Shown: positions 5,184 to 59,193 of the stretch, one piece after another
Layout of the letters: every line of letters starts with the position of its first letter
How positions within the stretch are numbered: position 1 is the stretch's first letter
Source: Opitutus terrae PB90-1
GTDB lineage: Bacteria; Verrucomicrobiota; Verrucomicrobiia; Opitutales; Opitutaceae
Length of the DNA stretch: 64,000 bases
Reading direction: 5' to 3'
Assembly: GCF_000019965.1 (NCBI RefSeq)
Contig: NC_010571.1
Location: forward strand, 2,551,001-2,615,000
Notes under the pieces: generated by a model
Databases searched by the model: none
What the model was told of the DNA's origin: nothing
The model's input: only the letters and a program-made list of their open reading frames with translations
Translations under genes and position numbers: made by a program

Positions 5184-5234
5184 ATGCGAGGAGCCGAGAG
5201 CCGAGAATCCAGAGCTGAGAGGGGACCGACCGGA

Positions 5235-5621
5235 TCAAGCTGTGCGCGGCTGTGAAGAGCGCCGCAACAGCAGGGCGCCGAGATAAAGCCCGCCGGTCAC
5301 GAGGCAGGTTAGATAGATTGCCGGCCGCGCGTGCGGCGCCACTACGAACTCCGCGACCGCCCGCAGCAGGTAGAGGCCGCTGCCGAGCACCAGCACCGCG
5401 GTGCCGAGCCGACTGGTCAGGATCTCCTCGGCGCGGAGCAGCGAGGCATAGGTTAAAAACAGGATAAACAGCGCTCCGCCGCCGTTGAACATCTCCAGCA
5501 GTGCACGCAATCCCGGCGCGACCTGCAGGTGATGCAGCTGCCACCCCATGTAGAGGTGAAATAGAAAGAAAAGCCCGTTGGCGACGCCGCTGGCGAGCAG
5601 AAGGACCTTGGCCGTTTTCAT
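5235..5621 (-). CDS. Small four-helix membrane protein of unknown function
   Basis: 128 residues with four hydrophobic segments (~5-25, 45-65, 73-93, 98-118) and a short polar C-terminus. It lies between two ADOP permease genes on the same strand, 51 bp before one and 37 bp after the other, so it is probably co-transcribed with both. I do not recognise a family. Its place suggests an accessory subunit of the permeases, but nothing in the sequence proves that. Confidence 0.7.
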   Translation of the reverse strand: MKTAKVLLLASGVANGLFFLFHLYMGWQLHHLQVAPGLRALLEMFNGGGALFILFLTYASLLRAEEILTSRLGTAVLVLGSGLYLLRAVAEFVVAPHARPAIYLTCLVTGGLYLGALLLRRSSQPRTA

Positions 5622-5658
5622 GAGTGAAGCTGGAAAGTCATGCGAACGGCCAACGGAG

Positions 5659-8076
5659 TTAGTCCGTTCGGAGGGCGATCAACGGATCGATCCGCGCGGC
5701 CCGAATCGAAGGCAGGATGCACGCGATCATCGAGATGACGGCGAACAATCCGGCCACGCCGAGATAGATGAGCGGATCAAACGGTTCAACGGCGAACAGG
5801 AGCGACTGGATCAGCCGCGCGGTCGCTGCGGCCGCTGCGAGTCCGACGGCCAGTCCGAGTCCGACGAGTTTCAGTCCGCCCTGCAGGATCAGCCGCACCA
5901 CCTGGCCGGGCCGCGCGCCGAGCGCCATCCGGATGCCGATTTCGCCCGTGCGCTGGGCGACGGTGTAGGCGAGCACGGAGTAGAGCCCGATCGCGGACAG
6001 CACGAGCGCGATCGCGGCGAAGAGTGAGGTGAGCGAGGCGACGATCCGCTGCACGCCGAGACTTTGCTGCACGGCGGTCGACATCGTCTGGAAAAACGAG
6101 ATCGGCTGGTCCTTATCGACTGAAGCGACCGCCGTGCGCAGGATCGGCTGCAGCGCGTCCGCGTCGCCCTCGACGCGCGCCATCACCGACATGCCGGGCC
6201 GGCCGAGTTGCCGCATCGGCAGGAAGATTTGGTCGGGCGCGGGCGCGTTCAATCCGTTCGCTTTCACGTCACCCACGATGCCGACGATCTCGATTTGCAC
6301 ATTGGCGTCCCGACCGCGCAGGAGCACCTTGCCGAGCGGGTTTTCGCCGGGGAAGAGCCGCCGGGCGAACGACTCGTTGATGATGCCGACGCCGGGCGCG
6401 CCTTCGCGATCCTGCGGGTTGAACCTGCGGCCCTCGCGCAGCGGGATCTGCAGCACTTGGAAGTAGTCGTCGCTGACGATGCACAATCCGGCGAGCGGAC
6501 GCTGCGACAGTGGCAGAATCGGACGGCCGCCGACGCTGTAGGGCGAGACCGGGTTGACGCCGCCCAGCGGCACGCCGATCGCCGCCGCGGCCGCTTTGAC
6601 CTGCGGCACTGTTTGCAGCCGCTCGATCACCTGCTGGAAGAATTGTGCCTGCTCGGCGTTCGTCTTGTAGCGGCCGGCCGGGATGCCGACGAACGCCGTG
6701 GCGACGCCGTGCGCGTCGAAACCGGGCGGCGTCCGCTGCAGACGCAGGAAGCTCATCAGCAGCAGCGTGGAACCGACGAGCAGCGTCACCGAAAGCGCGA
6801 CCTCCACGACCACGAGCGACGCGCGGAACCGACCGCCGCGCGTTCCGCCGGGCGCGCCGCGCGCGGTGTCCTTGAGCGTTTCCGCGAGGTCCTGACGCGA
6901 CGCCTGCAACGCCGGTGCGAGCCCGACGAGCAGCGCGCTCACCAGCGTGATGCCGAAGGTGAACGCCACGGCGGGCCAATCGAGCGTGAGCGTGGTGTTG
7001 GGCGGCAGCTGGGAGGCGATGGTCGACTGGACGGCGGACAGCGCCCACAGCGAGAAGAGGATTCCGAGGGCGCCGGCGAAAAACGAAAACACGATGCTCT
7101 CCAACACGAACTGGCGCACGATGGTGCGGCGCGTGGCGCCGAGCGATTGCCGCACCGCGATCTCCTTGTGGCGGGCCGAGAGCCGGCCGAGGAAAAGGCT
7201 CGCGACGTTGGCGCAGGCGATCAGCAGCACGAAGCCGACCGCGCCGAGCAGCGTGTAGAACGTCGGCCGGAGATTGCCGACGAGGGTGTCGGTGTAGAAG
7301 CGCGCTTCCGAAAGATTCTGCGCGTCGAGGTAGGTGCTGTAGCGCTCCGCGTAACTCTTGCTCAACGCGGTGAGCTCGGCGTTCGCCTGCTCGAGCGACA
7401 CGCCGGGCTTCAGCCGCGCAATCGGCTGCATGAAACTCGCGCCGCGCTCGACCTGATCGGGCGTGAGTCCGGGGTTTTCGAAGACGCGCGGTGCGAAGAG
7501 CTGCGTCGCGCTGAAGGGATTGCTGAGCCGCGGCGGCATCACCCCGATCACCTGCCACGAGCGGCCGTCGAGCTGAATGGTTTCGCCCACGACGCTCTCG
7601 CGTCCGCCGAAGCGCGTTTGCCAGAACTCGTGGCTGAGCAGGCAGACGGCGGGACCGTTGGGCGCGTCCTCCTCGGGGGTGAAGTTGCGGCCGAGCAGCG
7701 GCTGCACGCCGAGCGTGGGGAAGAAACTGGCCGTGACGCGGAGTCCGTTGAGCTGCTCGGGATCGCCGTTGCCGGTGAGCGTGAAGTTGCTGAACGCGCT
7801 GTTGCCGACCTGCGCGAACGAGCGGACGTTCGCCGCGATCTCGCGATAGCGCGGCCAGGCGACGGCCGGCGCATTGAAGTTGAGACTGTTGTTGACCGAC
7901 CAGATCGCGACGAGCGAGGACGGCTGCGGCAGCGTGACGGGATTCAGCACGAGCTGGTTGAAGATGCTGAACAGCGCGGTGTTCGCGCCGATGCCGACCG
8001 CGATCGTCAGCACGGCAACGAAGGTGAAGCCGGGGGATTTGAGCAGCGCGCGAAAAGCGTAGCGAAGATCGAGCAT
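5659..8076 (-). CDS. ADOP-type ABC transporter permease (second copy)
   Basis: 805 residues with the same duplicated MacB-periplasmic plus FtsX architecture as the gene at 2757-5183. The N-terminal helix follows MLDLRYAFRALLKSPGF, and FtsX signatures occur near residue 270-330 (EIAVRQSLGATRRTIVRQFV) and near the C-terminus (EIGIRMALGARPGQVVRLIL). I start it at the ATG at 8076, because ADOPs begin with M-x-D-L-R. An in-frame ATG at 8124 would add 16 residues unlike the family. No PadR-type regulator, which often accompanies ADOPs, is visible beside it. Confidence 0.9.
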   Translation of the reverse strand: MLDLRYAFRALLKSPGFTFVAVLTIAVGIGANTALFSIFNQLVLNPVTLPQPSSLVAIWSVNNSLNFNAPAVAWPRYREIAANVRSFAQVGNSAFSNFTLTGNGDPEQLNGLRVTASFFPTLGVQPLLGRNFTPEEDAPNGPAVCLLSHEFWQTRFGGRESVVGETIQLDGRSWQVIGVMPPRLSNPFSATQLFAPRVFENPGLTPDQVERGASFMQPIARLKPGVSLEQANAELTALSKSYAERYSTYLDAQNLSEARFYTDTLVGNLRPTFYTLLGAVGFVLLIACANVASLFLGRLSARHKEIAVRQSLGATRRTIVRQFVLESIVFSFFAGALGILFSLWALSAVQSTIASQLPPNTTLTLDWPAVAFTFGITLVSALLVGLAPALQASRQDLAETLKDTARGAPGGTRGGRFRASLVVVEVALSVTLLVGSTLLLMSFLRLQRTPPGFDAHGVATAFVGIPAGRYKTNAEQAQFFQQVIERLQTVPQVKAAAAAIGVPLGGVNPVSPYSVGGRPILPLSQRPLAGLCIVSDDYFQVLQIPLREGRRFNPQDREGAPGVGIINESFARRLFPGENPLGKVLLRGRDANVQIEIVGIVGDVKANGLNAPAPDQIFLPMRQLGRPGMSVMARVEGDADALQPILRTAVASVDKDQPISFFQTMSTAVQQSLGVQRIVASLTSLFAAIALVLSAIGLYSVLAYTVAQRTGEIGIRMALGARPGQVVRLILQGGLKLVGLGLAVGLAAAAATARLIQSLLFAVEPFDPLIYLGVAGLFAVISMIACILPSIRAARIDPLIALRTD

Positions 8077-8493
8077 GATGAGGCGGGGAATGGAGTGTGT
8101 CGGGTCCGCGATCGCAGGCGGCATGCCCGGAAACGAGCGGGTTACGCAGGGCCGCTGAAAATCAGCGGGTTAAAATTCATCAGACGCGAGACGCGGGGAA
8201 CCGGGCGTTCGAAAATGAAACCTCGTCGTCCCACGCGCGGGACGCGTGCTTGGACGTGGCAAGGGCGTCCGCCGACGAGGGTTGGGCTCGCGCGGCCGCA
8301 CCGCTGGCGACGCGGCGCTCCACGCACACGGGCGGGAGACGCCCGTGCCACTCCAGTCCTGTTCAAAACCGGTAAAAGCCGGCGGGTGGCGATGCGGTCC
8401 GCTACAGTTTCGCGGCGAGGGAACGATAGCCGATGGCATCCAGCCGAAGAAACCCGATGACGCCATACGGCAAAACTCCCATAGGACCTCCAG
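8077..8493. other. Gene-free divergent intergenic region with degenerate palindromes
   Basis: No credible gene is seen in 417 bp between the divergent permease and the 8494 gene, so promoters for both should lie here. It contains a hairpin CACGGGCG/CGCCCGTG (8327-8334 with 8340-8347). It also holds GC-rich blocks such as GCGACGCGGCGCTCC that resemble decayed copies of the palindromic elements found cleanly elsewhere in the window. Confidence 0.5.
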
Positions 8494-11196
8494 ATGACGC
8501 TTCATTTTGGCCGCTCCTTGGTCGCGGCTTGTCTCCTCGCTGGGCTGGTGCGCTGCGCGACCGCGGCGATAACTGATTCACGACTCGTCAACCTTTCCAC
8601 CCGCGGATTCGTCGGCACCGGCGATGACGTGCTGATCGCGGGATTCGTGGTCAACGGCACCGGATCGAAAGAGGTGCTGATCCGGGCGGTTGGGCCGTCG
8701 CTGGCTCAGGCCGGGCTGGCCGGCGCGCTGACCCAGCCGCGACTGCAGGTGTTCGACAGCACCGGACGGCTGATCGCGACCCAGGAACGCTGGGATCCGA
8801 CGCTGAAGCCGGTGTTCGCGCAAATCGGCGCGTCGCCGTTCGCGGAAAACAGCCTTGATGCCGCGCTCCGACTGACGCTCGCGGCGGGTCACTACACCGT
8901 GCACGTCTCCGGCATCGATGGTCCGCGCGGAATTGCGCTCGTCGAGGTTTACGAGATCAACGGCGCGCCGCGACTGCTCAATCTCTCCACGCGCGGCCGG
9001 ATCGAATCCGGCGACGGCGTGTTGATTGCCGGTTTGGTGATTTCCGGTCAGGGGCCACGCCGCGTTCTGCTGCGCGCGGGCGGGCCCGCCTTGACGAAGG
9101 CCGGGCTCAACACCGTGGTGCCGGATCCGGTGCTCACGCTCTTCGACCAGCAAGGCCGCGTGGTCGCGAGCAACGACGACTGGTGCGACAGCGACTACTC
9201 GACCGAAGTGGCCATGGCCTCGTCCGTGACCGGCGCTTATGCGTTCCCCGACGCGAGCTACGACTCGGCGCTGCTGATCGATCTGCCGCCGGGTGCCTAT
9301 TCGATGCACGTGAGCGGACTCGAGAATCGCTGCGGCATCGCGCTGCTCGAAGTGTACGATGTCACCGCTGCGACCGGTGCGACGGCGACCTCGATGAACT
9401 CGGCGGCGGTCAAGGCCGAAGGCGCCAGTTCGCGGCGGAAGAATCCGAAGCCGGCGCCCGATCCGAACTCGCGCATCGGCACGCCCTACAGCGCATCGGC
9501 CCTGAGCTGGGCGCGTGCCGACGTCAGCGCCCGGCTCGGGCCGACGTTCGCCGAGCTGAATCCCGGCGCGGCGGACGATCGGCCGACGTTGTTCAAGCAG
9601 GAATCGAAGATCGCCGGCGGCAAGTATTACGTGCGGATCAATCCCTACGAACTCGGCGAGCCGGGAACCTACAACGACTATTGGAGCGACACCGGCCAGG
9701 TCGGCTACATCCCCAACGATCCGGCGAACGATCCCGGACTCGATCGCGTGCAGGTGTACGCCTACTACAACCGCGTGTTTGCGATCAGCCCGCGGCCCGA
9801 CGTGGCCAGCGGCCGGCTGCACTCGGACCCGCAGACGCGCGAGCCGCGTTACCTCGAGCTCAATGGCGGCACGCCGATGCAGCCGGTAGCCATGGTGCGC
9901 AGCTACGGCATGCAGCAGAACGAGCAGCTCGTGATTTACCGCGACGGGCTATTCGCGGTCGCAGGCATGCAGACGAGCCGCGGCGGTGACGAGAAGCCGT
10001 ATCCGGGTTTCAAATTTCCCCAGCACAAGGTGCCGCGCGGGATCGCCGTGACCACGAGCCTGGAGTTCGCGCTGGTGACAATCTGGGACACCGAGCGGCG
10101 ACAGGGGCAGCTCGCGGTCGTCGCGCTCGAGGGCAAATTCCTGCCGTTCCACACGTGGCCGTACATGGGGCTGCCGAACCAGGGCAGTTTTTCGGATTTC
10201 AAGCTGCTCGGGTACATCGATCTGCCGATGAAATCGCCCGAAGCGGTCGCGGCCGCCAGCAATGGACTGTGGCGCGGCCCCTCCTCCACGGATGGCCGGG
10301 TGTTGAGCGAGATCGATCTCGCCACCGACGGTCACCGCAAGCTCGTCTACGACGGGGCATGGCAGGCGGTGGTCGCGAAAAGCGGCTACGCGCTGGTGAG
10401 CTCCACCGAGGACAACAAGATCGCGGTCGTCGATCTCACCCCGCTGTTCAGCTACATGCGCGAAAGTTACCTGAGCTCCGGGGACAGCTTCCGCCGCACG
10501 CTCGCGGAGCGCGGCGCCGCGCCGACGCAGTTTCCCCAAACATTCGAGGTCAATCCCGCCATCAAGCCGAAAGTCATCTGGGAAACGCCGGTGAGCGAGC
10601 CGACCGCGGTGCTCGCCGGACAGAAGATCGATCGCTGGACGAAGGATCGGTTCAAGGCGTATGTCGCTTCGCGCGACGGCACGGTGCGAATCCTCGATGT
10701 GTCGCCGCTGATGGCGCGCAGCAGCTGGGAGACGCGCGGGCAGCTCGAGATCATGGGCCAGTTTCAAGTGGGCCGAAATCCGGTCGCGATGGCGTTGTCG
10801 CGCCACGGCGCGAAAGACCTGCCGCTGATCCCGAATGGCAGCGACGGCGCGCAACTCGCACCGGATCCGTTCAACAATCTGTTTTACGTGGCGTGTCGCG
10901 GCGAACGCTCGATCGACGCCGTCGTGACGTGGCAGGGCCAGGGGCAGGTTTACCGCCGGATCAAGGATGCGCGGATGGGCGATCCGGTCGCGGTGAGCGT
11001 GGCGATTCGCGGCAACATCGTGAGCGTCGCGGATTTTGCGGGGCAAAAGCTGCTGAGCTTCCGGATGGGCACGCTGAACGATGCGAAGAACGACAAGGTC
11101 TATCCGCCGGGTGATCCGCGTTACCCGTATGAATTCGCCGGTGAGATGAAGCTGCTGGGCTCACCGTTCCTGGTGAACTCGGCGAACACGAACTGA
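8494..11196 (+). CDS. Secreted protein with two N-terminal LSTRG modules and a propeller-like C-terminal region
   Basis: 900 residues. A signal peptide covers ~1-25. Two tandem copies of a ~125-residue module follow (29-153 and 157-290). Each opens with R-L-x-N-L-S-T-R-G, then G-x-G-D-x-x-L-I-A-G and a conserved G-P-S/A-L, and closes with GIALxEVY. The remaining ~600 residues hold repeated blade-like strands (YVASRDGTVRILDVSPL, NNLFYVACRGERSIDAVV) resembling a YVTN/quinoprotein-type beta-propeller. No catalytic motif was recognised. The same module occurs twice at the C-terminus of the GH115 protein at 14280-18320, so it is probably a surface or binding module. A strong terminator follows. 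Confidence 0.75.
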   Translation: MTLHFGRSLVAACLLAGLVRCATAAITDSRLVNLSTRGFVGTGDDVLIAGFVVNGTGSKEVLIRAVGPSLAQAGLAGALTQPRLQVFDSTGRLIATQERWDPTLKPVFAQIGASPFAENSLDAALRLTLAAGHYTVHVSGIDGPRGIALVEVYEINGAPRLLNLSTRGRIESGDGVLIAGLVISGQGPRRVLLRAGGPALTKAGLNTVVPDPVLTLFDQQGRVVASNDDWCDSDYSTEVAMASSVTGAYAFPDASYDSALLIDLPPGAYSMHVSGLENRCGIALLEVYDVTAATGATATSMNSAAVKAEGASSRRKNPKPAPDPNSRIGTPYSASALSWARADVSARLGPTFAELNPGAADDRPTLFKQESKIAGGKYYVRINPYELGEPGTYNDYWSDTGQVGYIPNDPANDPGLDRVQVYAYYNRVFAISPRPDVASGRLHSDPQTREPRYLELNGGTPMQPVAMVRSYGMQQNEQLVIYRDGLFAVAGMQTSRGGDEKPYPGFKFPQHKVPRGIAVTTSLEFALVTIWDTERRQGQLAVVALEGKFLPFHTWPYMGLPNQGSFSDFKLLGYIDLPMKSPEAVAAASNGLWRGPSSTDGRVLSEIDLATDGHRKLVYDGAWQAVVAKSGYALVSSTEDNKIAVVDLTPLFSYMRESYLSSGDSFRRTLAERGAAPTQFPQTFEVNPAIKPKVIWETPVSEPTAVLAGQKIDRWTKDRFKAYVASRDGTVRILDVSPLMARSSWETRGQLEIMGQFQVGRNPVAMALSRHGAKDLPLIPNGSDGAQLAPDPFNNLFYVACRGERSIDAVVTWQGQGQVYRRIKDARMGDPVAVSVAIRGNIVSVADFAGQKLLSFRMGTLNDAKNDKVYPPGDPRYPYEFAGEMKLLGSPFLVNSANTN

Positions 11197-11231
11197 CGCA
11201 GCGACCAGATTTGTTAGGAGACAGGGTGGTT

Positions 11232-11267
11232 GGCAGGGCCGGGTGGTGCCGGCCCTGCCTTTTTTTT
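11232..11267 (+). terminator. Strong rho-independent terminator
   Basis: An 11-bp perfect stem (11232-11242 with 11249-11259), loop GTGGTG, and eight consecutive T. It lies 35 bp after the stop of the 8494-11196 gene. Confidence 0.95.
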
Positions 11268-11362
11268 CCAAGCGCGGAGGAATGGTCGGGCGACCGCGGA
11301 GCGTGAGCTTCATTCGCGGCTTGTCTTCGGGGCGCGGCTGCTTCGCTCTGGCGAGCACTGGC

Positions 11363-11794
11363 ATGAAGCAATCGATCGGGCTGGTTTCGCTGCTGGTACG
11401 TGACTACGACGAAGCGCTGGACTTTTTCGTCGGCCGCCTCGGGTTTGCGAAGGTGGAGGACCGATGGATCGAAACGCAGTCGAAGCGTTGGGTCGTGGTC
11501 GAGCCGCGCGGCGGGGGCGGTTGCCGGCTGCTCCTCGCCCGAGCGACGACCCCGGAGCAGCAGGCGCGCGTGGGCGATCAGGCGGGAGGACGCGTCTGGC
11601 TTTTTCTCCACACCGACGATTTTCGCCGCGATTATGAGGACTTTCTCGCCCGGGGCGTCGCATTCGTGCGCGCTCCGCGGGAGGAGGCTTACGGCACCGT
11701 TGCGGTGTTCGAAGACCTCTACGGCAACCGGTGGGATTTGCTGCAGCCACGCGAGCCGGCGAGTGAGTGCGCGGCTGGTCCTGGGCCCGGCTGA
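11363..11794 (+). CDS. VOC-superfamily (glyoxalase/bleomycin-resistance-like) protein
   Basis: 143 residues from the ATG at 11363. The start is chosen because the VOC fold begins at once with KQSIGLVSLLVRDYDEALDF and the upstream in-frame codons cross the terminator. The beta-alpha-beta-beta-beta pattern is complete: DYDEALDFFVGRLGF near the start, RWVVVEPRG, a second half with VWLFLHTDDF, and a closing VFEDLYGNRWDLLQP containing the Glu that usually ligates metal. The short C-terminal tail is Gly/Pro-rich. Members include glyoxalases, dioxygenases and antibiotic-binding proteins; the substrate is not predictable. A short gap separates it from the Tat-exported gene on the same strand. Confidence 0.85.
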   Translation: MKQSIGLVSLLVRDYDEALDFFVGRLGFAKVEDRWIETQSKRWVVVEPRGGGGCRLLLARATTPEQQARVGDQAGGRVWLFLHTDDFRRDYEDFLARGVAFVRAPREEAYGTVAVFEDLYGNRWDLLQPREPASECAAGPGPG

Positions 11795-11853
11795 GGTGAT
11801 GGCTGCCTTCCGCGTTGCGCGCGGCGGGTGAGTGGTTTGAGCTGCGTCCTCTG

Positions 11854-14175
11854 ATGAGCGACGCCCGGTCACGCGATTTTTCGCGCCGCCAGTTCCTGCA
11901 GCAACTCGCGGGCGCGGCGGCGCTGGTAACGTTGGCCGACTGGCGGCTCGTCGCCGGTGAAGGAACCGCCGGCAAGGCCGCCGTCGCGCAACCCTGGTAT
12001 CAGCGCGCGCTGCGCTGGGGGCAGACGAATCTCACCGAGATCGACGTGGAGCGATTCGACACCGTGTGGTGGCGCGAACACTGGCGGCGCACCGCGGTGC
12101 AGGGCGTGGTGATCAACGCTGGTGGCATCGTGGCGTATTATCCGACCTCCGTGCCGCTGCACCGGCGGGCGGCGCACATGAACGGCCGTGATCTGTTCGG
12201 CGAACTGACGGCGGCGGCCCACGCGGACGGACTCGCGGTGTTTGCGCGGATGGACTCGAACCGCGCGGACGCGACGTTCTATCAGGCGCATCCGGACTGG
12301 TTCGCGCGCGATGCGAATGGCGAGCCTTACCGGGCCACGGGGCTCTACGTGGCGTGCGTGAACAGCCCGTATTACCACGAGCACATTCCGGCGATCCTGC
12401 ACGAGGTGGCGACGCGCTACCGTCCGGAGGGGTTCACCGACAACAACTGGAACGGCCCGATGCGGGATCAGCCGTGTTTTTGCGGGAACTGCGAGCAGCT
12501 GTTTCGCGCGCGCACGGGCGCGGCGATTCCGCGGCAGCCCGACTGGAACTCGCCGCTCTATCGCGAATGGATCCGGTGGAATTACGAACGGAGAACGGAG
12601 ATCTGGGAGCAGTTCAACCACGCCACGCGCCAGGCTGGTGGACCGGAGTGCCTGTGGGTTGGCATGATGGCGGGATCGCAGAACTGGCAGGCGCGGGTGT
12701 TCCGCGACGATCGCGAGATTTACCGCCGCACCGAGCTGGTGATGCTGGACGATCAACGACGGTTCGATCCGGAGGGGTTTCAGCACAACGGCGAGATCGG
12801 TGCACGGATCCGCGGCGTCGGTGGCTGGGACAAGGTGATCCCGGAAAGCATGGCGATGTACCACCTCACCGAGCATAACTTCCGGCTCGCGGCGAAACCG
12901 GAACCCGAGGTGCGATTGTGGTTTCTGGAAGGCGTCGCGGGTGGAGTGCAGCCATGGTGGCATCACGTCGGCTCGGATCAGCAGGATCGTCGGATGCTGC
13001 AAACGGCCGAGCCGCTTTGGCAATGGCATCGCCGCAACGAAGCCTATCTCGTCCACCGCCGGCCGCGCGTCACGGTGGGATTGGTCTGGTCGCAGCGGAA
13101 CATGGACTTCTTTGGCCGCGACGACGGCGGCGCGCACGTCGACGATCCGTGGAATGGCTGGATGCAGGCGCTGATCCGCGCGCGGATTCCCTACGTGCCG
13201 GTGCACGTCGACGACCTCGATCGCGAAGTCGGGGCGCTCGGCTTGAAGCTGCTGATCCTGCCGAATCTCGGGGCAATGTCGGATCCGCAAGTCGCGGCCG
13301 TGCGGCGATTCGTCGCGGCGGGCGGCAACCTGCTCGCGACCGGGCTCAGCTCGCTCAGCGACGAGTGGGGCGAGGCGCGCGACGATTTTGCGTTGGCCGA
13401 CGTGCTGGGCGTGCACCTGCCGCCGCGGCATGCGTTTCGCGACGAGCCGGTGCGCACGCGCTGGGCGAAACGCTGGACGCAAACCTATCTGCGGCTGCAT
13501 CCGGAACTGCGCGCCGGCATCCCGGGACCGCGCAGCGGCGACGAGCCCGAGATCGCAGGCGAGCGGCACGAGGTCCTGCGGGGATTTGAGCAAACGGACA
13601 TCCTGGCGTTCGGCGGGATGCTCGAACCGCTCGCGGTGGAGCCAGGGGGCGTGGTGCCGCTCACGTTCGTGCCCGCCGTGCCCACGTCGCCGGTGGAATC
13701 CGTCTGGATGCACGAGCCGCGGACGGACATCCCCGGCCTCGTCCTGCGTGAGAACGCCGCCGGCGGACGGATCGCGTATTTGCCGGCGGATCTCGATCGT
13801 CGGTTCGCACGTGAGAATCTCCCAGATCACGGCGACCTGCTCGCGAATCTCGTCCGCTGGACGTCGCGCGGCGACATTCCGCTGAAGGTCGAGGGCGCCG
13901 GGCTTATCCATTGTCATCTCTATCAGCAATCGGCCCCGGACCGGCTCGTGCTGCATCTGGTGAACCTGACCAACGCCGGCACGTGGCGGACGCCCGTGCA
14001 CGAATTGATCGCGGTCGGACCGTTCATGGTATCGGTGCGGTTCGCAACGAGATCGAAGCCGGAGAATCTCGTCTCGCTTGTCAGCGGCGAACGCCGCACG
14101 TTCGAGCAAACGGGCGAGTGGGTGAAGTTCGAGGTGACGCGGATCGTCGATCACGAGGTGTTCGTGATCAGCTGA
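11854..14175 (+). CDS. Tat-exported glycosyl-hydrolase-like protein (hypothetical GH family 6 / beta-galactosidase-trimerisation type)
   Basis: 773 residues from the ATG at 11854, which places a twin-arginine signal at the very N-terminus (SRRQFLQQLAGAAAL). The catalytic region resembles the TIM-barrel 'hypothetical glycosyl hydrolase 6' group. It shows RAAHMNGRDLFGELTAAAH, FARMDSNRAD, ACVNSPYYHEHIPAILHEV and GFTDNNWNGP, followed by CFCGNCEQLF. A later Rossmann-like part (VTVGLVWSQRNMDFF and LKLLILPNLGAMSDPQVAAV) fits a beta-galactosidase trimerisation domain, with a beta-rich C-terminus. It should act folded, outside the cytoplasm, on a plant or algal glycan. The substrate is unknown. It converges with the GH115 gene. 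Confidence 0.75.
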   Translation: MSDARSRDFSRRQFLQQLAGAAALVTLADWRLVAGEGTAGKAAVAQPWYQRALRWGQTNLTEIDVERFDTVWWREHWRRTAVQGVVINAGGIVAYYPTSVPLHRRAAHMNGRDLFGELTAAAHADGLAVFARMDSNRADATFYQAHPDWFARDANGEPYRATGLYVACVNSPYYHEHIPAILHEVATRYRPEGFTDNNWNGPMRDQPCFCGNCEQLFRARTGAAIPRQPDWNSPLYREWIRWNYERRTEIWEQFNHATRQAGGPECLWVGMMAGSQNWQARVFRDDREIYRRTELVMLDDQRRFDPEGFQHNGEIGARIRGVGGWDKVIPESMAMYHLTEHNFRLAAKPEPEVRLWFLEGVAGGVQPWWHHVGSDQQDRRMLQTAEPLWQWHRRNEAYLVHRRPRVTVGLVWSQRNMDFFGRDDGGAHVDDPWNGWMQALIRARIPYVPVHVDDLDREVGALGLKLLILPNLGAMSDPQVAAVRRFVAAGGNLLATGLSSLSDEWGEARDDFALADVLGVHLPPRHAFRDEPVRTRWAKRWTQTYLRLHPELRAGIPGPRSGDEPEIAGERHEVLRGFEQTDILAFGGMLEPLAVEPGGVVPLTFVPAVPTSPVESVWMHEPRTDIPGLVLRENAAGGRIAYLPADLDRRFARENLPDHGDLLANLVRWTSRGDIPLKVEGAGLIHCHLYQQSAPDRLVLHLVNLTNAGTWRTPVHELIAVGPFMVSVRFATRSKPENLVSLVSGERRTFEQTGEWVKFEVTRIVDHEVFVIS

Positions 14176-14279
14176 CGCATACGCGCGTTTGCTTGCTCTG
14201 AGGCTGCGTTTCAGCCGGTGGAGGGAGGCGTCCGGCGAGCTGGATCGTGTGGCTCGCGGGCGGCTCGCTCGACCGTCCG

Positions 14280-17200
14280 TCACGGCATCGCGTAAACCTC
14301 GAGCAGCGCCACGCCCATCGTGTCGTCAGCTCCGCGAACGTGCGCCGAGTAAACGCCCGGTGCGACGCTGATCATCAGCGCGGCATCATGCGAGCCGAGC
14401 GGCAGCGGCGAGGAACCGAGTTCGGTGAACGTGGCGGGCAGCGGGCCGGAGCTGTCCCAGTCGTCGTTCTCGGCGATGGGCGAGCCATACGCGTTGTAGA
14501 CAGTCAGCTCCGGATCGGGGAGGACGCCGGAAACGTCGCTTGGCAGCGAAGGCCCGACACCGCGAATGAGGAAACGTTTTGGCGCGTCGCCCGACAGCAC
14601 GAAGCCGACGATCAGAATCTCGTCGCCAACGCCGACCTGGTTCCGCACGGAAAAATTGGTGAACCGCACGCCGCTCTCGATCGCATCGGCGTCGAACGCT
14701 TCGACGAGCGCGATGCCAGTCGTGCCGCCGAGTCCGCGGCCGTGCGCCGAGTAAACGCCGGCCGGGAGCGCCGCGACCAGCGCCGCGTCGCGCGAGCCGT
14801 CGAGCAGCGGGCCCGCTCCCAGCCGCGCGAACAACGCCGGGGACGCGGCCGTTTCGCTGGCCCAGTCGTTGTTCTGGCGGACGCTCGTTGACTCACGAAA
14901 CAACTCCAGCTCGGGATCCACCAGCGTACCCGGTACGCCGTAGGTCGCGAGGGTGGGACCCTTGTTGCGAAGCAGCACCGTTTTGTTGCCGGTGCCAGCG
15001 AGCACGAAGCCCATGATCAGCGTCTGATCGCCGGTGCCCGCCTTGCCGCGCACGGAGATGTTCATCACGCGGCTCGTGCCGACGCGCACCGTCGCGGCAG
15101 CCGAGGTCACGCTGCCACCCGGATTCGTGACGACGACGCGATACAGACCAGCGTCGGTCGCAGCGAAACCGGTGAGCGTGAGTGTGGAACTCGTCGCGCC
15201 GGGGAGATCCGTGCCGTCTTTCTGCCACTGATAGGTGAACGGTCCGTGGCCCGCGGCCTCGACGGTGAGCGTCGCTGTGCTGCCGAGCGCGACCGCCTGC
15301 GATTGCGGAGCGGTGGAGACGGTGGCGGGCGGCGGCACCGGGGCGAAATAACTTTCCGTCGGACCGAGATAGCTCGGCCGCGCACCGCCGAAATCGACCA
15401 GCAGTTTCTGCACGACGACGCCGGGATCGATCATCCAAACCTTGAGCGTGTGCGTGCCAGCGGCGGTGAACGCGTGCGTCGATCGGCCGAACCGCGCGTT
15501 GGCGCGCACGCTTTCCTCCCAGTCGGCGTTGCCGTTCTGCGCGCGATACCCCGCAGGCACCAGCGTGACGACGTGCGGCGTTTCGTCGTCGACAGAGATC
15601 GCGTAGCGCAGCGGTCGGCCGGGCAGGAAGTTCAGCGTCGGTCCGACGGTGACCGTGACGTTCGCCGGGCCGGTCGAGAACGTGTGCATCTGGTATTCGA
15701 GGCACGGCGCGTTCGTGCCGGGAATGGCGGGTTCGGCGTCGACCGGACCGGTGGCGCGCAGACCGGAAAGCGTGTGCCCGTAGTCTTCGATCTTCAGCCA
15801 ATGCCGATCACCGCTCGCGCGGTTCGCGGTGAAATGCTCGGCTTCGATGGCGACGAACCCCGCGCTTTCCGCGAACCCGATCAGCGTGTCGCGGCTGACG
15901 CCCGCAGGGTTGAGCGCTTCGACGGCAACGGTGACCTCCGCGCCGGCGCCGGTGATCCGCACCGTGCCGGTCGCCGAGCCGGCGGGCACGGCCGACCAGT
16001 CAATGCTCACGGCGAGCCGACGATCGGCGCCGACCGAGCCGGTGGTTTCGCTGAGCACGATCCACGGCGCGCTCGCAGTCGCGGTGAAGGCGAATGCGTC
16101 CGTGCCTTTGTTAAACACCTCGATCCAGCGTATCTGCCGGTTGAGCGCATCGAACCGCGGCAGCGCCGGCTGGCCGGCGGTGCCGGGCCACGCGGACGCT
16201 GAGCCCTCGATCGCGACGCCGAGCGCAGCCGCCGCTGCCGGCGTGGGTTCAACGAGCGGAATCGCACGCAAGCTATCGGTCGGCGGATCCTGCCAATTGA
16301 GGTAGCCGAGGTGGGTCTGATCCATGAAGTGCGCCCAGCGGCCGCCGGCGAACGTGGTGTTGAAATTGTTCTTCAGCGCCATGTCTTGCGCGAACAGCTC
16401 GCGCACGCGCGCCGCCTGCGCGGCGGTGCTCGCGCGACCTTGCGCGGCGTAGAGCGCATTGCGACCGGCGGTGACGTAGAGGTCGTTCACCAGCGCGCAG
16501 GATTTCACGGCAAAGTACACGGTCTGGTAAAACGCGTCGCGTTTGCTCGCGGGCAGCGCGTTCAACACCGCTTCCGCGCGAGTGGCGAGGGCGTTGTAGT
16601 CTGCGACGACGGTTTCCGCCTCGCGGTCGTTCACCAGGCTGTAGGTGGTCGGCGAGAGCAGCTCGGGTTTGCGCCGGGCATTGTAGCGCGTGTAACGGGT
16701 CACGATGTCGGCGATTTCCGCGGCGTGCTCTCCACCGAACTCTCGTGCGGCCCAGCCGCGCGTGAAATCGTCGGTGTTCGATTCGGTCCAGTGCTGCGCG
16801 TCCCAGCCGAGGCTGAGGAAATACTCGATCGGCAGCTCGTAGCTTTTGTTCAGATGGCCGACGTTCACGATCCAGATCCGGTCGGCGCCATACTGTTTCG
16901 CCAGCGCCATCTGATCCCAGATCTTCGGCAGTGGGCTGGTGTTGATCCACTGATAGCTGCGCGGGCCGCCGTGGTAATCGAAATGATAGTAAATGCCGGC
17001 GCCGCCCGGGCGAGCGCGCTCGTCCGCAGTGGGAACGCGGCGGAGATCACCCCAGTTATCCTCGGCCCAGAGCAGCGTGACATCGTCGGGTACGCGCATG
17101 CCGGCCTCGTAGTAATCCTGCACTTCCTTGTAGAGGCACCATACCTGCGGTACGCGGGTGACGTCGGGGTTCACCTCGTCGGCGAGAATCGTGCGCTGCA

Positions 17201-18320
17201 CGCGGACGATCTCCTCGAGCAGTGCGCGGTTGGCTTCGGGTCCGCCCGGCGCCATCTCGGTGTCGTTGGCGCCACGGAGGCCCATGGTGATAATGCTTTC
17301 GTAGTTCCGGTTGCGCCGGACACCTTCGCGCCAGAACGCCTGCAGCGTCGACGCCTGCGTGGCGTAGTTCCATGAGCCGAGGGTGGCGCCGTAGCGGCGA
17401 TCCCATTCCTTCTGCGCGCGCAGCATCGGCTCCTGGTGCGACGTGCCCATGACGATGCCGTATTCGTCGGCGAGCCGCGGGTTCTCCGGATCGTCTTCGT
17501 TGAACGCGTTGTTCCACATCGCGGGCCAGAGGTAGTTGGCCTTCATCCGCAGCAGCAGCTCGAAAATCCGCGTGTAGAACTCGCGGCCGTAGTTCGCGAT
17601 CCCGCCCGGCACCGGCGGATTCGTGCTCGGCGTGGCGGTGCCGTATTTCGCCAAGACCCAGTTCGTCAGCGACGGCGCCTCGTCGTTGAGGAAGATGCCG
17701 CGGTATTTTACAGACGGCTCGCCTTGGACATAGGCGGTTTCAAGCACGTAGACCTCGGAGCGCTTGGGCGGAGTGACATCGGCCCACCAGTGCCAGGGTG
17801 AGACGCCGAGCTGCTCGCAAAGATCGTAGATGCCGAAGATCGTGCCGCGTTTGTCGCTGCCGGCGATCACGATGGCGGTCCCGTTTGGCACCGCGCCGGG
17901 CAGACCCTGGATGAGAAACGACTCCCATTTGCCGCGGACGCGGGAGACGTCGATCTTTCCTTCCGCGATCAAGCGGTCGATCAATTGGCTGCGGCCGATC
18001 GTCCCGACGATGATCAGCCGCGTACCGGGATTGGCGGCGTCGTGCGTGATCGCGGGGGTGAGGTCGGTCACGCGCGCGATGTCGGTCTGCAAGTCGCCCG
18101 CGGCACGCACGACGCCGGGCCAGTCGGCGGTGTCGACGTAGATCGACGCCACGCGGCCGTCGCGTGCGAGCTCCATGATGTTGCCCATGCTGGGCTGGAA
18201 ATTCAGCAACGGGTGATTCGGAGTGTTCAGCGCGAACACCGCGAGAGGCTGGGCGAGGCATCCGGCGACGAGCGCGATCGCTCGCCGCAGGCAACGAGGG
18301 AGTCGGCGTGGCGAAGGCAT
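14280..18320 (-). CDS. GH115 family alpha-glucuronidase with Ig-like domain and two LSTRG modules
   Basis: 1346 residues from the ATG at 18320, chosen because it opens a classic signal peptide (SPRRLPRCLRR, hydrophobic core, cut after VFA); an in-frame ATG at 18368 is the alternative. The GH115 core (~40-700) shows SPWHWWADV, VKYRGIFLNDEAPSL, NYLWPAMWNNAF and LWAEDNWGDLRR, all typical of the family, followed by a GH115 C-terminal beta domain (to ~990). An Ig-like domain comes next (FTYQWQKDGTDLPGA, DAGLYRVVVTNPGG, ~1000-1080), then two copies of the ~125-residue LSTRG module (~1083-1208 and ~1218-1346). GH115 enzymes remove (4-O-methyl)glucuronic acid from xylan. The protein is probably secreted or surface-held. 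Confidence 0.85.
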   Translation of the reverse strand: MPSPRRLPRCLRRAIALVAGCLAQPLAVFALNTPNHPLLNFQPSMGNIMELARDGRVASIYVDTADWPGVVRAAGDLQTDIARVTDLTPAITHDAANPGTRLIIVGTIGRSQLIDRLIAEGKIDVSRVRGKWESFLIQGLPGAVPNGTAIVIAGSDKRGTIFGIYDLCEQLGVSPWHWWADVTPPKRSEVYVLETAYVQGEPSVKYRGIFLNDEAPSLTNWVLAKYGTATPSTNPPVPGGIANYGREFYTRIFELLLRMKANYLWPAMWNNAFNEDDPENPRLADEYGIVMGTSHQEPMLRAQKEWDRRYGATLGSWNYATQASTLQAFWREGVRRNRNYESIITMGLRGANDTEMAPGGPEANRALLEEIVRVQRTILADEVNPDVTRVPQVWCLYKEVQDYYEAGMRVPDDVTLLWAEDNWGDLRRVPTADERARPGGAGIYYHFDYHGGPRSYQWINTSPLPKIWDQMALAKQYGADRIWIVNVGHLNKSYELPIEYFLSLGWDAQHWTESNTDDFTRGWAAREFGGEHAAEIADIVTRYTRYNARRKPELLSPTTYSLVNDREAETVVADYNALATRAEAVLNALPASKRDAFYQTVYFAVKSCALVNDLYVTAGRNALYAAQGRASTAAQAARVRELFAQDMALKNNFNTTFAGGRWAHFMDQTHLGYLNWQDPPTDSLRAIPLVEPTPAAAAALGVAIEGSASAWPGTAGQPALPRFDALNRQIRWIEVFNKGTDAFAFTATASAPWIVLSETTGSVGADRRLAVSIDWSAVPAGSATGTVRITGAGAEVTVAVEALNPAGVSRDTLIGFAESAGFVAIEAEHFTANRASGDRHWLKIEDYGHTLSGLRATGPVDAEPAIPGTNAPCLEYQMHTFSTGPANVTVTVGPTLNFLPGRPLRYAISVDDETPHVVTLVPAGYRAQNGNADWEESVRANARFGRSTHAFTAAGTHTLKVWMIDPGVVVQKLLVDFGGARPSYLGPTESYFAPVPPPATVSTAPQSQAVALGSTATLTVEAAGHGPFTYQWQKDGTDLPGATSSTLTLTGFAATDAGLYRVVVTNPGGSVTSAAATVRVGTSRVMNISVRGKAGTGDQTLIMGFVLAGTGNKTVLLRNKGPTLATYGVPGTLVDPELELFRESTSVRQNNDWASETAASPALFARLGAGPLLDGSRDAALVAALPAGVYSAHGRGLGGTTGIALVEAFDADAIESGVRFTNFSVRNQVGVGDEILIVGFVLSGDAPKRFLIRGVGPSLPSDVSGVLPDPELTVYNAYGSPIAENDDWDSSGPLPATFTELGSSPLPLGSHDAALMISVAPGVYSAHVRGADDTMGVALLEVYAMP

Positions 18321-18613
18321 GACGGCGGACGGGTTGGGGAAGACGGTCACGGAGGAGGCCAGGGGCATAAACCCAGTCTACGCGAAACCCCGCACCCTGA
18401 CCTTAGCGAATCCATTCAGATTATCGAATGCCGCAGCAACGCGCATGTTCCCACCCAAGCGACATCGTTCCCTGTGCTCAGGCACAGGGCTGCAATTGGA
18501 TCTGAATAGAGATGTCGCCAAGCTGCAGTCCGCCGTGCTCTTCGCCACCCGTCCTGCGCCAATGTTCGTCTTACGATCATTGGCATGGGACCGGCGGCGC
18601 AGGCCGCGCGGGG

Positions 18614-20944
18614 CTATCGCGCCTCGGTTCGTTCGAGCCGGTCGAGCCGCTCGCGCAGGCCGGGCAGGGTGGGGTCGAGCGCGAGCGCGGCTTTCCACGC
18701 CGCAATGCCATCCGCGCGGCGACCGCTGAGAATCAGCGCATAGCCGAGCTCGGCGCGAAGCGCGGCATCCTGTGGCTGCAGCTCGATGGCGCGCTGGTAG
18801 TGCTCCACGGCGGCGGCGAACTGCTGCCGCCGCGCGAAGGCCTGGGCGGCCGTTCGCTGCACGAGCGGGCTGTCGGGCGCCAGCTCCACGGCGCGCGTGA
18901 AACTCGCCGTTGCTTCGTCAGCCCGGCCCAGCTGCTCCGCCGCCCGCGCGAGTCCGAGGTGCGCTGTCGCGAGTTCGGGCGCGGAGCGGAGGGCGGCGCG
19001 AAAATGCGTCTCGGCCTCGGCGGGCTCACCGCGGCTGAGCAACAGGAGACCGAGTTCGGTGTGCGCTTCCGGATAGTCGGCGCGCAGCCGGAGCGCGTTG
19101 CGATGCGCAGTGATCGCGTCGTCGTCGCGGTCCAGCTGGGCCAGCGCCAGCCCAGCGCCGAAATGCGCGGCCGGTTCATCCGGATTGAGCGCGAGCGCGA
19201 CCTCGAACTGGGCGAGTCCGAGGTGTGCGCGTCCGTGCAGCGTGTGGTCCATGCCTTCGGCGATGCGTTGCTGCACGAGCTCGGGATGTCTCTGGCCCAC
19301 GGCGTGGAGATGTTGCTGCGCCCCGGGGTCGCGCTGGCGCAGCAGGAGTAATCCGAGTCGATACTCGGTGTCGCTGTCCTTCGGGTTCAGCTCCAGCACG
19401 CGGCGGTAAAGCTCGGCGGCGTCGCCGGCGTGGCCCTGACGTTCGAGCACGCTGGCGAGGGTGAACAGCGCCGTCCGGTTGCGCGGATTCAGCTCGAGTG
19501 CGCGGCGGCTGTGGATGGCCGCTTCCTCCAACTCGCTCTGCGTCGCGAGCGTGTAAGCGAGTAGCGCGTGTCCGACCTCGTTGCGCTCGGTGACCGCGAG
19601 CGCGTGCCGGAAAAGGGTCGTTGGATCGCGCCACACCGCTTGTTGCTCCCACGTGCGGATCGCACCGCCGAGCAGTACCGCGACGGCGGTCACCGCCGCG
19701 GTTTTACGCGCGAACGGTCGCGCGGCGAGCAGCGGGGCGAGAGTCCAGAGCAGCGCGAGCTGCAGGAGCAGGATCGGCGCGTAGGTGTAGCGGTCGGCCA
19801 TCGCTTGGAATCCGACCTGGATGAGTCCGAGCGCGGGGAGCAGCGCGACGAGAAAGCCGGCCCAGCCGACCAATACCCATGGCCGCGCGCGACGCTGCCA
19901 CCAGGCGACGGCGGTTACGACAACCACGAGCGCGGTCGCGCCCATGATGACGAGCCACGGCCAGTGACCGGGATGCGGATAGCAGACAGTGAGGTTGGCC
20001 GGCCAGAGGAACTTGCCGAGATAGCGGGCGATCGACACGACCGCGTTGCCGAGCCGCGCGCCGAACGGCAAATCGAGGACGAACGCGCCCTGCGTCTGCT
20101 GCATAAGCACGGTCACCGTGGCGATCGCGAGCGAGAGCGCGAGCAGCGGCACCTGTTCCAACAACAGCTGGCCGGTGCGGCGCCACATGGCGCGATCGAG
20201 CACGCTCAGATCGAGGCGGCGCAGCGGCCAGACGTTGAGTAGAAAGAGCACGCCCGGCAGCGTCACGAGCATCGGCTTGCACATCAGCCCGGCGAGAAAC
20301 AGCCCGAGCGTGAGCAGATAAAATGGCCAGGGGCGCGCAGGCGCGGATGGGATCGAGGGCGCACCCAGGTGCGCCTCCGCCGGAACGGCGTGCGGGTCGG
20401 TTTGCGACGGACGCAGGGACCGGCCGCTGTGAGCATCACGGCGCTGCGCATAGGCCGCGAACGCCCAGAGCGTGAGCAGAAAAAAGCAGCCGCTCATCAC
20501 GTCTTTGCGTTCGGTGATCCACACCACCGACTCGACGCGCAAGGGATGCCACGCGAACAGGGCCGCCGCGAACGCGGACGTCCACGGCGCGCCGGTCAAC
20601 CGCCGCAGCACGAGGAACGCGAGCACGGCGTTCAGCGCGTGCCACAGGACGCTGGTGAGGTGATGTCCGCCGGCGTTGTCGCGCCACAACTGCCAGTCGA
20701 GCATGTGCGACAGCCACGTGAGCGGATGCCAGTAGTCCGCCTGTCCGGTGAAGGCCCAGGCGAGGCTCTCCTTGGTGAAGCCGGCCTGAACGTGGACGTT
20801 GTTCGTCACGAAGGCGGGATCGTCGTAGTTGCTGAAGTCGTAGCTCAGCCCGCGGCTGAACAGCAGCACGGTGCAGGCGAAAAGCACGCAGCACACCGCC
20901 GCGGTGAGAAGCGAAGGCCGGACGGTGGGCGGGGAGAGTGACAC
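18614..20944 (-). CDS. Polytopic membrane protein with C-terminal TPR array (TMTC-like)
   Basis: 776 residues. The first ~440 hold about ten hydrophobic segments with the luminal-type motif SYDFSNYDDPAFVTNN and then HPLTWLSHMLDWQLW, AWHPLRVESVVWITERKDV, resembling the O-mannosyltransferase-like TMTC/PMT fold. The last ~330 are TPR units (NPRNRTALFTLASVLERQG, NPKDSDTEYRLGLLLL, EAHTELGLLLLSRGEPAEAE, LATAHLGLARAAEQLGRADE). Genes of this layout are frequent in Verrucomicrobia and Planctomycetes and are presumed glycosyltransferases; no activity can be assigned here. It is divergent from the esterase at 21086. The 245 bp between it and the GH115 start hold no clear gene or terminator. Confidence 0.8.
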   Translation of the reverse strand: MSLSPPTVRPSLLTAAVCCVLFACTVLLFSRGLSYDFSNYDDPAFVTNNVHVQAGFTKESLAWAFTGQADYWHPLTWLSHMLDWQLWRDNAGGHHLTSVLWHALNAVLAFLVLRRLTGAPWTSAFAAALFAWHPLRVESVVWITERKDVMSGCFFLLTLWAFAAYAQRRDAHSGRSLRPSQTDPHAVPAEAHLGAPSIPSAPARPWPFYLLTLGLFLAGLMCKPMLVTLPGVLFLLNVWPLRRLDLSVLDRAMWRRTGQLLLEQVPLLALSLAIATVTVLMQQTQGAFVLDLPFGARLGNAVVSIARYLGKFLWPANLTVCYPHPGHWPWLVIMGATALVVVVTAVAWWQRRARPWVLVGWAGFLVALLPALGLIQVGFQAMADRYTYAPILLLQLALLWTLAPLLAARPFARKTAAVTAVAVLLGGAIRTWEQQAVWRDPTTLFRHALAVTERNEVGHALLAYTLATQSELEEAAIHSRRALELNPRNRTALFTLASVLERQGHAGDAAELYRRVLELNPKDSDTEYRLGLLLLRQRDPGAQQHLHAVGQRHPELVQQRIAEGMDHTLHGRAHLGLAQFEVALALNPDEPAAHFGAGLALAQLDRDDDAITAHRNALRLRADYPEAHTELGLLLLSRGEPAEAETHFRAALRSAPELATAHLGLARAAEQLGRADEATASFTRAVELAPDSPLVQRTAAQAFARRQQFAAAVEHYQRAIELQPQDAALRAELGYALILSGRRADGIAAWKAALALDPTLPGLRERLDRLERTEAR

Positions 20945-22809: not shown

Positions 22810-22866
22810 TGTAGGCCAGGTCGGTGACCTGGCTGGATCGGAGCCACCTCAACGAGGTAGCCTACA
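22810..22866. repeat. Three-way-junction palindrome, divergent copy (TGTAGGC...GCCTACA)
   Basis: Outer arms TGTAGGC (22810-22816) and GCCTACA (22860-22866) are perfectly complementary and enclose two hairpins, CCAGGTC-GGT-GACCTGG and ACCTC-AACG-AGGT. The loops resemble those of the 24906 copy, but the stems differ. The right arm contains the stop codon of the minus-strand gene at 22862-23074. Confidence 0.7.
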
Positions 22867-24905: not shown

Positions 24906-24956
24906 ATGTAGCCGGCCTCGTTGAGGCCGGGCCGGGGTCAACGACCCCGGCTACAT
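24906..24956. repeat. Three-way-junction palindrome, best copy (GTAGCC/GGCTAC family)
   Basis: A perfect 10-bp outer stem (24906-24915 with 24947-24956, ATGTAGCCGG/CCGGCTACAT) encloses two 6-bp hairpins with 3-nt loops: GGCCTC-GTT-GAGGCC and GGGGTC-AAC-GACCCC. The two inner hairpins are inverted versions of one another in loop and flanks. It lies between glnD and the kinase. Confidence 0.85.
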
Positions 24957-33083: not shown

Positions 33084-33156
33084 GGTAGGGACGGCTCTCC
33101 GAGCCGTCCGGGAAGTCGCCGATTGCTCGCGGACGCCACGAAGTGGCGTCCCTACC
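33084..33156. repeat. Three-way-junction palindrome, GGTAGGGAC family
   Basis: A 9-bp outer stem (33084-33092 with 33148-33156, GGTAGGGAC/GTCCCTACC) encloses two 9-bp hairpins with 3-nt loops: GGACGGCTC-TCC-GAGCCGTCC (33089-33109) and GGACGCCAC-GAA-GTGGCGTCC (33131-33151). It has the same architecture as 24906-24956 but different sequence. It lies 8 bp after the response-regulator stop. Confidence 0.85.
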
Positions 33157-33220: not shown

Positions 33221-33344
33221 CCGCGACGCCCTCGTCGCGGCAGCCGGAGCGGCGCAGCATGATGTAGCTGGGCTCGCTGAGCCCGGCCGGCCGGGGTCAA
33301 CGACCCCGGCTACAACAAGGCCGACGCGACGGGGGCGTCGCGTC
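33221..33344. repeat. Composite palindrome: GTAGCC-family unit nested between halves of a GCGACGCCCTCG-family unit
   Basis: Left half CCGCGACG-CCCT-CGTCGCGG (33221-33240), then a GTAGC..GGCTACA three-way element (33263-33314, one mismatch in the outer stem), then the right half GACGCGACG-GGGG-CGTCGCGTC (33323-33344). Uninterrupted copies of the outer family occur at 59141 and 62729. Confidence 0.75.
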
Positions 33345-43034: not shown

Positions 43035-43134
43035 GTAGGGGCGCAGACTTGCTGCGCCCGCGATCACGAAACCTAAGGGCGTAGCAAGCTGCGCCCCTAC
43101 CCGCGTGGTGGCACGGGCATCTTGCCCGTGCCAC
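43035..43134. repeat. Three-way-junction palindrome plus a separate perfect 12-bp hairpin
   Basis: The first unit has a 12-bp perfect outer stem (43035-43046 with 43089-43100, GTAGGGGCGCAG/CTGCGCCCCTAC) that competes with two inner GGGCGCAG/CTGCGCCC-type hairpins. The second unit is a perfect 12-bp stem with loop TCT (43108-43119 with 43123-43134). It lies between convergent treY and livF. Neither strand shows a T-run, so it does not look like a simple terminator. Confidence 0.8.
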
Positions 43135-54938: not shown

Positions 54939-55253
54939 GGAAGGAAGGTGGAGATTTTGTCGGTGTGCCGCCAGCGCGAGGTTTCGCTGTCGCGCTGTAG
55001 TCGGGCGCGTTGAGCGTGGTTACACAAGCCATGGAGCCGCGACGCCCTTGTCGTGGCAGGAGAGCGGGACTTCGGTCGCGTTGTAGCCGGGCTCGTTGAG
55101 CCCGGCGCTGGGGTCGGCGACCCCGGCTACACGAAGCGGGATGCGACGGCGAGGCGGCTCGCTGGGAGCGCGGGCATCTTGCCCGCGTTTCAGTGTAAAG
55201 AGCGGCCGAGGACGGCCGCGCTCCCACGTAGCCGCACTCGGGCGCGTTCCCCG
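54939..55253. repeat. Gene-free stretch holding three palindromic elements (55037-55225)
   Basis: A half-unit of the GCGACGCCC family (CCGCGACG-CCCT-TGTCGTGG, 55037-55056) is followed by a GTAGCC three-way unit (55082-55131, hairpin loops GTT and GGC). A third unit (55164-55225) has outer arms GGGAGCG/CGCTCCC enclosing CGCGGGCA-TCT-TGCCCGCG and GCGGCCG-AGGA-CGGCCGC. No gene or promoter was recognised. Confidence 0.75.
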
Positions 55254-59084: not shown

Positions 59085-59193
59085 TGTAGCCGGGCTCGTG
59101 GAGCCCGGGGCCGGGGTCGACGACCCCGGCTACACTGGTGCCGCGACGCCCTCGTCGCGGCTGCCACCACGACGCGACGAGGGCGTCGCGTCC
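59085..59193. repeat. GTAGCC three-way palindrome directly joined to a complete GCGACGCCCTCG palindrome
   Basis: The first unit (59085-59134) has outer stem TGTAGCCGGG/CCCGGCTACA-like with hairpin loops GTG and GAC-type. The second unit (59139-59193) consists of CCGCGACG-CCCT-CGTCGCGG and its inverted copy CGCGACG-AGGG-CGTCGCG. The two families abut with 4 bp between them. They fill the gap between accA and the carbonic anhydrase gene. Confidence 0.8.

Follow-up and report, generated by a model that had tools for sequence, protein, structure and literature searches.

The GTAG-tagged palindromes of the analysed window (64,000 nt, bases 2,551,001-2,615,000 of the single-contig, 5,957,605-bp genome of Opitutus terrae) are very probably REPINs, i.e., two head-to-head GTAG-tagged REP hairpins, non-autonomous repeats of a RAYT, whose arms are heterotypic in every main-family pair found with a spacer shorter than 10 nt. 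The elements themselves are already known, since parts of Di Nocera 2013 (PMC3733652) report a strong enrichment of this species in GTAG repeats of several families, including GTAG-17, -19 and -20; the new point is the spacer-dependent pairing rule. On balance, we lean toward a general form of this rule: REPs less than about 10 nt apart may not share a stem, whichever types are present, and farther apart they combine freely. The heterodimer preference noted by Di Nocera 2013 would then be due to selection against perfect palindromes that lack a spacer instead of to distinct ends, and this selection would keep several stem types in one RAYT family. In parts of that paper, the preference "has no obvious explanation" and is not discussed in terms of spacer length (PMC3733652). 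The pairing rule makes this open remark testable, would explain why one transposase keeps several stem types, and allows the effect of spacer length on the survival of inverted repeats in bacterial chromosomes to be followed in a natural experiment. No paper linking REP heterotypy with spacer length was found in the part of the literature searched, which included few subscription journals.

GTAG elements of the window and their genomic copies

The original prediction described a common plan, with a GTAG start, a CTAC close and two enclosed hairpins, and exact mapping placed such an element at 7/7 of the named sites. The "superfamily" that it proposed is the GTAG super-family published in Di Nocera 2013, as described in parts of that work (PMC3733652). 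Each half of a main-family element reads GTAG-CCGG-xx-TC-NNN-GA-x'x'-CCGG, in which the GTAG tag is followed by a stem of 8 bp with a loop of 3 nt, and the centre xx distinguishes stem types A (GG), B (GC) and C (CC). The halves are arranged head-to-head with GTAG outermost. Among the 34 exact copies of the genome, the units are 46-75 bp long and the spacer is 1 or 2 nt in 24. In these features the main family resembles GTAG-17 of O. terrae, whose head-to-head dimers have 1-2 bp between partners according to parts of Di Nocera 2013 (PMC3733652), and we infer from orientation and spacer length that the two are the same family.

Four of the seven window elements (24908, 33264, 55083 and 59086) belong to the main family, with the stem CCGG-xx-TC and a three-base loop, and two of these four have one mismatched stem pair in a single arm. 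The REPIN at 24908..24954 (+ strand) joins a type C arm (GGCCTC) to a type A arm (GGGGTC) across a 1-nt spacer; its left REP arm (24908..24930, + strand) consists of GTAG and a hairpin with 8 stem pairs and a loop of 3 nt, and the right one (24932..24954, - strand) is inverted. The other three main-family REPINs, all on the + strand, pair a type B arm with a type A arm: 33264..33313 (spacer 4 nt, one stem mismatch in the B arm), 55083..55130 (spacer 2 nt, one stem mismatch in the A arm) and 59086..59133 (spacer 2 nt). The remaining elements, also on the + strand, are (i) a REPIN of a related, variant family at 22811..22865, with arms GTAGGCCAGGTC and GTAGGCTACCTC, the second imperfect, (ii) a REPIN of another GTAG family at 33085..33155, with arms GTAGGGACGGCTC and GTAGGGACGCCAC and a 21-nt spacer, and (iii) a homotypic REP pair of another GTAG family at 43035..43100, with GTAGGGGCGCAG on both arms and a 17-nt spacer, which is predicted with RNA parameters to fold as one long hairpin.

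The genome was scanned with exact patterns and reversed-pattern controls. The main family had 34 exact two-arm matches (control 0) and the second family (GTAGGGC...) 27 matches (control 0), so that the original prediction withstood the possibility, which it had itself raised, of copies being no commoner than chance. A looser outer pattern matched 65 times versus 36 in its control, and the outer ends by themselves are therefore weak evidence. In a 2.06-Mb sample, 182 of 8,350 GTAG sites were followed by a perfect hairpin (7 bp or longer). Nine permuted tags were tried; eight of them yielded 29-78 hairpins at 4,860-20,013 sites each, and TAGG yielded 92 at 3,327 sites, a rate above that of GTAG, probably because TAGG sits within GTAGG-tagged repeats. 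GTAG thus lies directly 5' of a short perfect hairpin in many copies, as in GTAG-tagged REPs. Mechanically called REPs less than 120 bp apart formed 41 head-to-head (HH), 5 HT and 1 TT neighbours, a few of which are chance or overlapping cases, and inverted head-to-head pairs, as in REPINs, numbered 34 exact.

Stem bases change together on both sides, as had been predicted: in 90 GTAGCC hairpins, preselected for at least 6/8 paired positions (a selection that favours pairing), 672 of 720 cells were Watson-Crick, versus 532 on average and 559 at most in 1,000 shuffles of the 3' halves. The pair at positions 10/18 was C-G in 41 hairpins, G-C in 36 and A-T in three, the remainder being non-Watson-Crick. 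A T immediately precedes GTAG in 58 of the 61 perfect GTAGCC arms counted, versus 242 of 946 non-hairpin GTAGCC sites. Both arms had an equal loop in 9/34 main-family pairs of O. terrae, versus 7.4 expected (P 0.30). The predicted three-way junction fared less well: with DNA parameters, an A-B model pair with a 1-nt spacer reached -19.0 kcal/mol when closed by GTAG:CTAC and -19.5 kcal/mol as two hairpins. Closure thus gives model pairs no added stability, a closed three-way junction is not predicted, and in our reading each REP carries GTAG unpaired, as a tag, instead of using it to close a junction.

Two other groups of repeats were observed in the window. GTGG-tagged hairpins, GTGGCACGGGC...GCCCGTG, at positions 8327-8351 and 43105-43134 represent a further REP family; such hairpins also lie on the flanks of a Y1 transposase at one locus of a relative (L137), and GTGG occurs in most GTAG-20 elements of O. 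terrae, as stated in parts of Di Nocera 2013 (PMC3733652). Inverted repeats CGCGACGCCCTCGTCGCG, with arms of 16-18 bp, spacers of 9-31 and no GTAG tag, are located at 59142 and 62736, and recur in the genome sample (L057, L059, L066, L077, L087 and L091).

RAYT genes and their REP flanks

Four matches to Y1_Tnp at E 0.01 or better were found in the genome, one of them under the Pfam cut-off, and none lies within the 64-kb window, in agreement with the earlier remark that it holds no RAYT gene. A RAYT is encoded 20 kb left of the window (C1:2530429-2530881). Its protein scores 101.1 bits against NF047646 (REP-associated tyrosine transposase; cut-off 80), and its closest solved structure is PDB 4er8, annotated "TnpArep" (E 1.5e-8). 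Upstream of this gene lies a main-family B-A REPIN, and an A-type REP of the main family follows downstream; the search suggested in the original prediction, for a RAYT flanked by the same element, was thus successful, and its REPIN/RAYT reading is upheld. In locus L007, the tags of cognate REPs at 1313, 1364 and 1965 flank the RAYT gene at 1447-1902, which is the arrangement of a REPtron. The second REPtron (C1:3173326-3173685) has three family-2 REPs alongside. The strongest Y1_Tnp match of the genome is at C1:576594, and no such REP hairpin was found in its 3.3-kb locus (L005). Further RAYT-like matches are located at C1:5903718-5904098 and C1:5390158-5390331, the latter (L008) under the NCBIfam cut-off. 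By the NF047646 score, the genome encodes a Y1 transposase of the RAYT type.

RAYT relatives were found in 32 of 56 other genomes (33/57 counting O. terrae itself). Among the best 80 of 311 loci, retrieved in a search with a four-sequence alignment, 62 loci had a mechanically called GT[AG]G hairpin within 600 bp. In the 60 RAYT loci with full upstream flanks, a hairpin was present near the gene in 48, versus seven in equally long stretches, approximately, farther away. A nine-sequence RAYT alignment has invariant HUH histidines and an invariant tyrosine, which we take to be the catalytic residues. By analogy with other RAYTs, the transposase would bind REP hairpins in single-stranded DNA through their GTAG tag, cut close by and in this way spread copies.

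Pseudomonas REPINs, attributed to Bertels and Rainey in 2011, are reportedly REP doublets; the O. terrae elements are likewise REP doublets that form dispersed units. Insertion sequences of the IS200/IS605 group have hairpin ends, and the resemblance extends to the Y1 transposase family (Pfam PF01797). Unlike them, the O. terrae repeats are gene-free and the transposase gene lies away from most copies; a transposase inside the mobile unit is not found, as 46-75 bp leaves no room for a gene. Compared with the REP/BIME system of E. coli (y and z REPs, TnpAREP), as presented in parts of PMC8266576, the shared features are GTAG-tagged inverted pairs of differing REP types and a nearby Y1 transposase. 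The E. coli REPs are longer and have bulged stems, whereas those of O. terrae are perfect 8-bp palindromes joined to GTAG and resemble the "group 3" REPs of the same source, as far as parts of it describe them.

Stem type and spacer length

The 34 exact pairs of O. terrae comprise 24 AB, 7 AC and 3 BC pairs and none that is homotypic; random pairing of the same arms gave a mean of 12.9 homotypic pairs and reached zero in 0 of 200,000 shuffles. In a search of 150 host-family genomes, homotypic pairs had wide spacers only, among the matches listed. The limit between spacers of 9 and 10 nt was set after this search and before the counts in 252 host-family genomes, a set that includes O. terrae and overlaps with the earlier one. 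With spacers of 0-9 nt, no A-A pair was found in the 252 genomes, and A was paired with B or C in 128 cases in 29 genomes. With spacers of 10-40 nt, there were 71 A-A pairs in 15 genomes and 57 pairs of A with B or C in 18 genomes; the B/C pattern lets in a few imperfect arms. A search for B/C pairs with spacers of 0-30 nt added three short B-C pairs and six long homotypic ones (1 BB, 5 CC). When pooled over the 252 genomes, mostly draft assemblies, 131/131 pairs with spacers of 0-9 nt are heterotypic and 77/134 with spacers of at least 10 nt are homotypic (P 3e-30, for copies that are related by descent and not independent).

Stratification by genome, using the four-search counts of the eight genomes that hold both short and A-A pairs, gave P of about 1e-9; genome G024, which has 27 of the 71 A-A pairs and no short pair, is uninformative in this test. 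Within a single genome, G113, the long pairs comprise 8 AA, 8 AC and 5 CC (the CC count spans spacers to 30 nt, the other counts to 40 nt), a mix close to random pairing, under which 10.5 heterotypic pairs are expected, and all ten short pairs are AC (P 0.001). For stems of any sequence, counted in the O. terrae sample and 109 RAYT loci with arms within 4/8 differences (a set overlapping the O. terrae counts), the same stem was found on both arms in 0/25 pairs with spacers of 0-9 nt versus 16/83 with spacers of 10-60 nt (P 0.02). In 387 genomes of the phylum, host-family members included, two short-spacer pairs were found outside the host family among the matches listed (for G376, five of seven), in G599 and G282; both are heterotypic, and they are too few to extend the rule beyond the host family. 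Parts of Di Nocera 2013 (PMC3733652) report that GTAG-1 of P. putida and P. entomophila forms mostly homodimers, and that most dimers have spacers of 20-100 bp. The pairing rule agrees with the idea that perfect palindromes lacking a spacer are avoided, and it speaks against left and right ends of fixed identity.

Possible causes of the pairing rule

If the arms of a spacerless pair were identical, the pair would form a near-perfect palindrome of at least 46 bp, and this is presumably why the arms differ. Our preferred cause, to which we give an even chance, is that such palindromes are lost by hairpin-provoked deletion or nuclease attack. Parts of Di Nocera 2013 (PMC3733652) suggest that heterodimers may escape palindrome clearance, and parts of a review (PMC7999016) state that palindromes are riskier to the genome when spacers are shorter and arms more similar. 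The O. terrae genome contains perfect palindromes of other kinds (arms 16-21 bp, spacers 0-2 nt), and such palindromes are thus not simply forbidden; the exclusion may apply only to arms that are long and GC-rich, or may depend on RAYT action. The 56 exact arms of the sample included no double-foot collapse product. Folding energy as the only cause was considered and rejected: in predicted equilibrium folding of homotypic model pairs, the margin in favour of the long hairpin is -12.5 kcal/mol at spacer 1 and -12.6 kcal/mol at spacer 25, and these near-equal values are insufficient to predict a spacer threshold.

A tentative alternative places the failure in the RAYT substrate: in single-stranded DNA, a short-spacer homotypic pair would snap into one long hairpin, with its GTAG tags paired, and could not be copied, whereas wide pairs would fold locally first. 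At spacer 1, model pairs with identical arms prefer the long hairpin by 12.5 kcal/mol; the preference is 4.9 for A-B and 5.1 for B-C, and for A-C the long hairpin is disfavoured by 1.5. Other RAYTs need the GTAG tag, and REP is bound and inverted REP is not, according to parts of PMC8266576. The explanation must, however, assume a kinetic effect, since homotypic pairs at spacer 25 prefer the long hairpin alike, yet A-A pairs at 10-40 nt are common, and since A-B, the commonest pair of O. terrae, also prefers it in the model.

In the usual view each REPIN is copied as a unit, and the short pairs could descend from a heterotypic founder copied whole, with the absence of homotypic ones being a matter of history. 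This seems doubtful to us. It agrees with the prevalence of A-B among O. terrae pairs and with several relatives (e.g., G144 and G113) in which the short pairs are only A-C, among the matches listed. Against it, AB, AC and BC pairs (24, 7 and 3) occur together in one genome with no homotypic product, which implies that arms have changed type, and short homotypic pairs are likewise absent from the 29 genomes in which short A-B/C pairs were found and from other stem families.

Fixed end identity, i.e., arms acting as non-equivalent left and right ends as in IS200/IS605, with one of each needed, was first favoured from the RAYT flanks and was dropped when homotypic long-spacer pairs were found; we now regard it as unlikely. 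It would suit family 2, in which GGCCGGCG is paired with GGC[CT]GCCG in 27/27 pairs, and the strand-specific REP stems around several RAYT genes, e.g., at L114, L115 (one variant copy) and L202; at other RAYT genes (L140, L142, L144 and L152), however, the same stem occurs on both strands. The homotypic A-A, B-B and C-C pairs at spacers of at least 10 nt and the 3/34 B-C pairs that lack an A arm also speak against it. Relative to the inferred lagging-strand template, the A arm is on the 3' side in 25 of 33 O. terrae pairs (Fisher P 0.0024 between replichores, assigned from coarse GC skew), but this bias was noted post hoc, weakens to P 0.14 after thinning to one pair per 50 kb, and is absent in family 2 (P 0.70). 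The side of the main-family A arm by replichore (16:7 versus 1:9; P 0.14 when thinned) is suggestive of strand-specific insertion.

An RNA role, in which the shape is kept for terminators, mRNA 3'-end stabilisers or protein-binding sites, is improbable. The stop codon of a Pfam-matching ORF lies 8-220 bp before six of the seven window elements, and one element is 22 bp past the stop of the GlnD ORF (ORF ends are mechanical in both cases); REPs are located mostly downstream of coding regions, as stated in parts of Di Nocera 2013 (PMC3733652). On the other side, no Rfam family reached its gathering score in the 64-kb window, and a terminator would need none of the REP hallmarks present here, namely GTAG conservation, head-to-head pairing and the flanking of RAYT genes. 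Technical loss of perfect palindromes in cloning or assembly, leaving homotypic short pairs unseen, would suit the fragmented assemblies that make up most of the genomes, but is highly improbable given that the shortfall of homotypic pairs is found in the single-contig genome of O. terrae, the assembly of which contains perfect palindromes of 34-43 bp (0-2-nt spacers).

Other palindromic sequences were also recorded. AT-richer palindromes, such as TTTCACGTA/TACGTGAAA and GTGTTACA/TGTAACAC, are possibly operator sites (L033:1266, L107:14511, L077:18251 and C1:2536195-2536229), and long inverted repeats of AGAACGAGAACGA-like units are located at L036:2722, L038:2262 and L096:10742.
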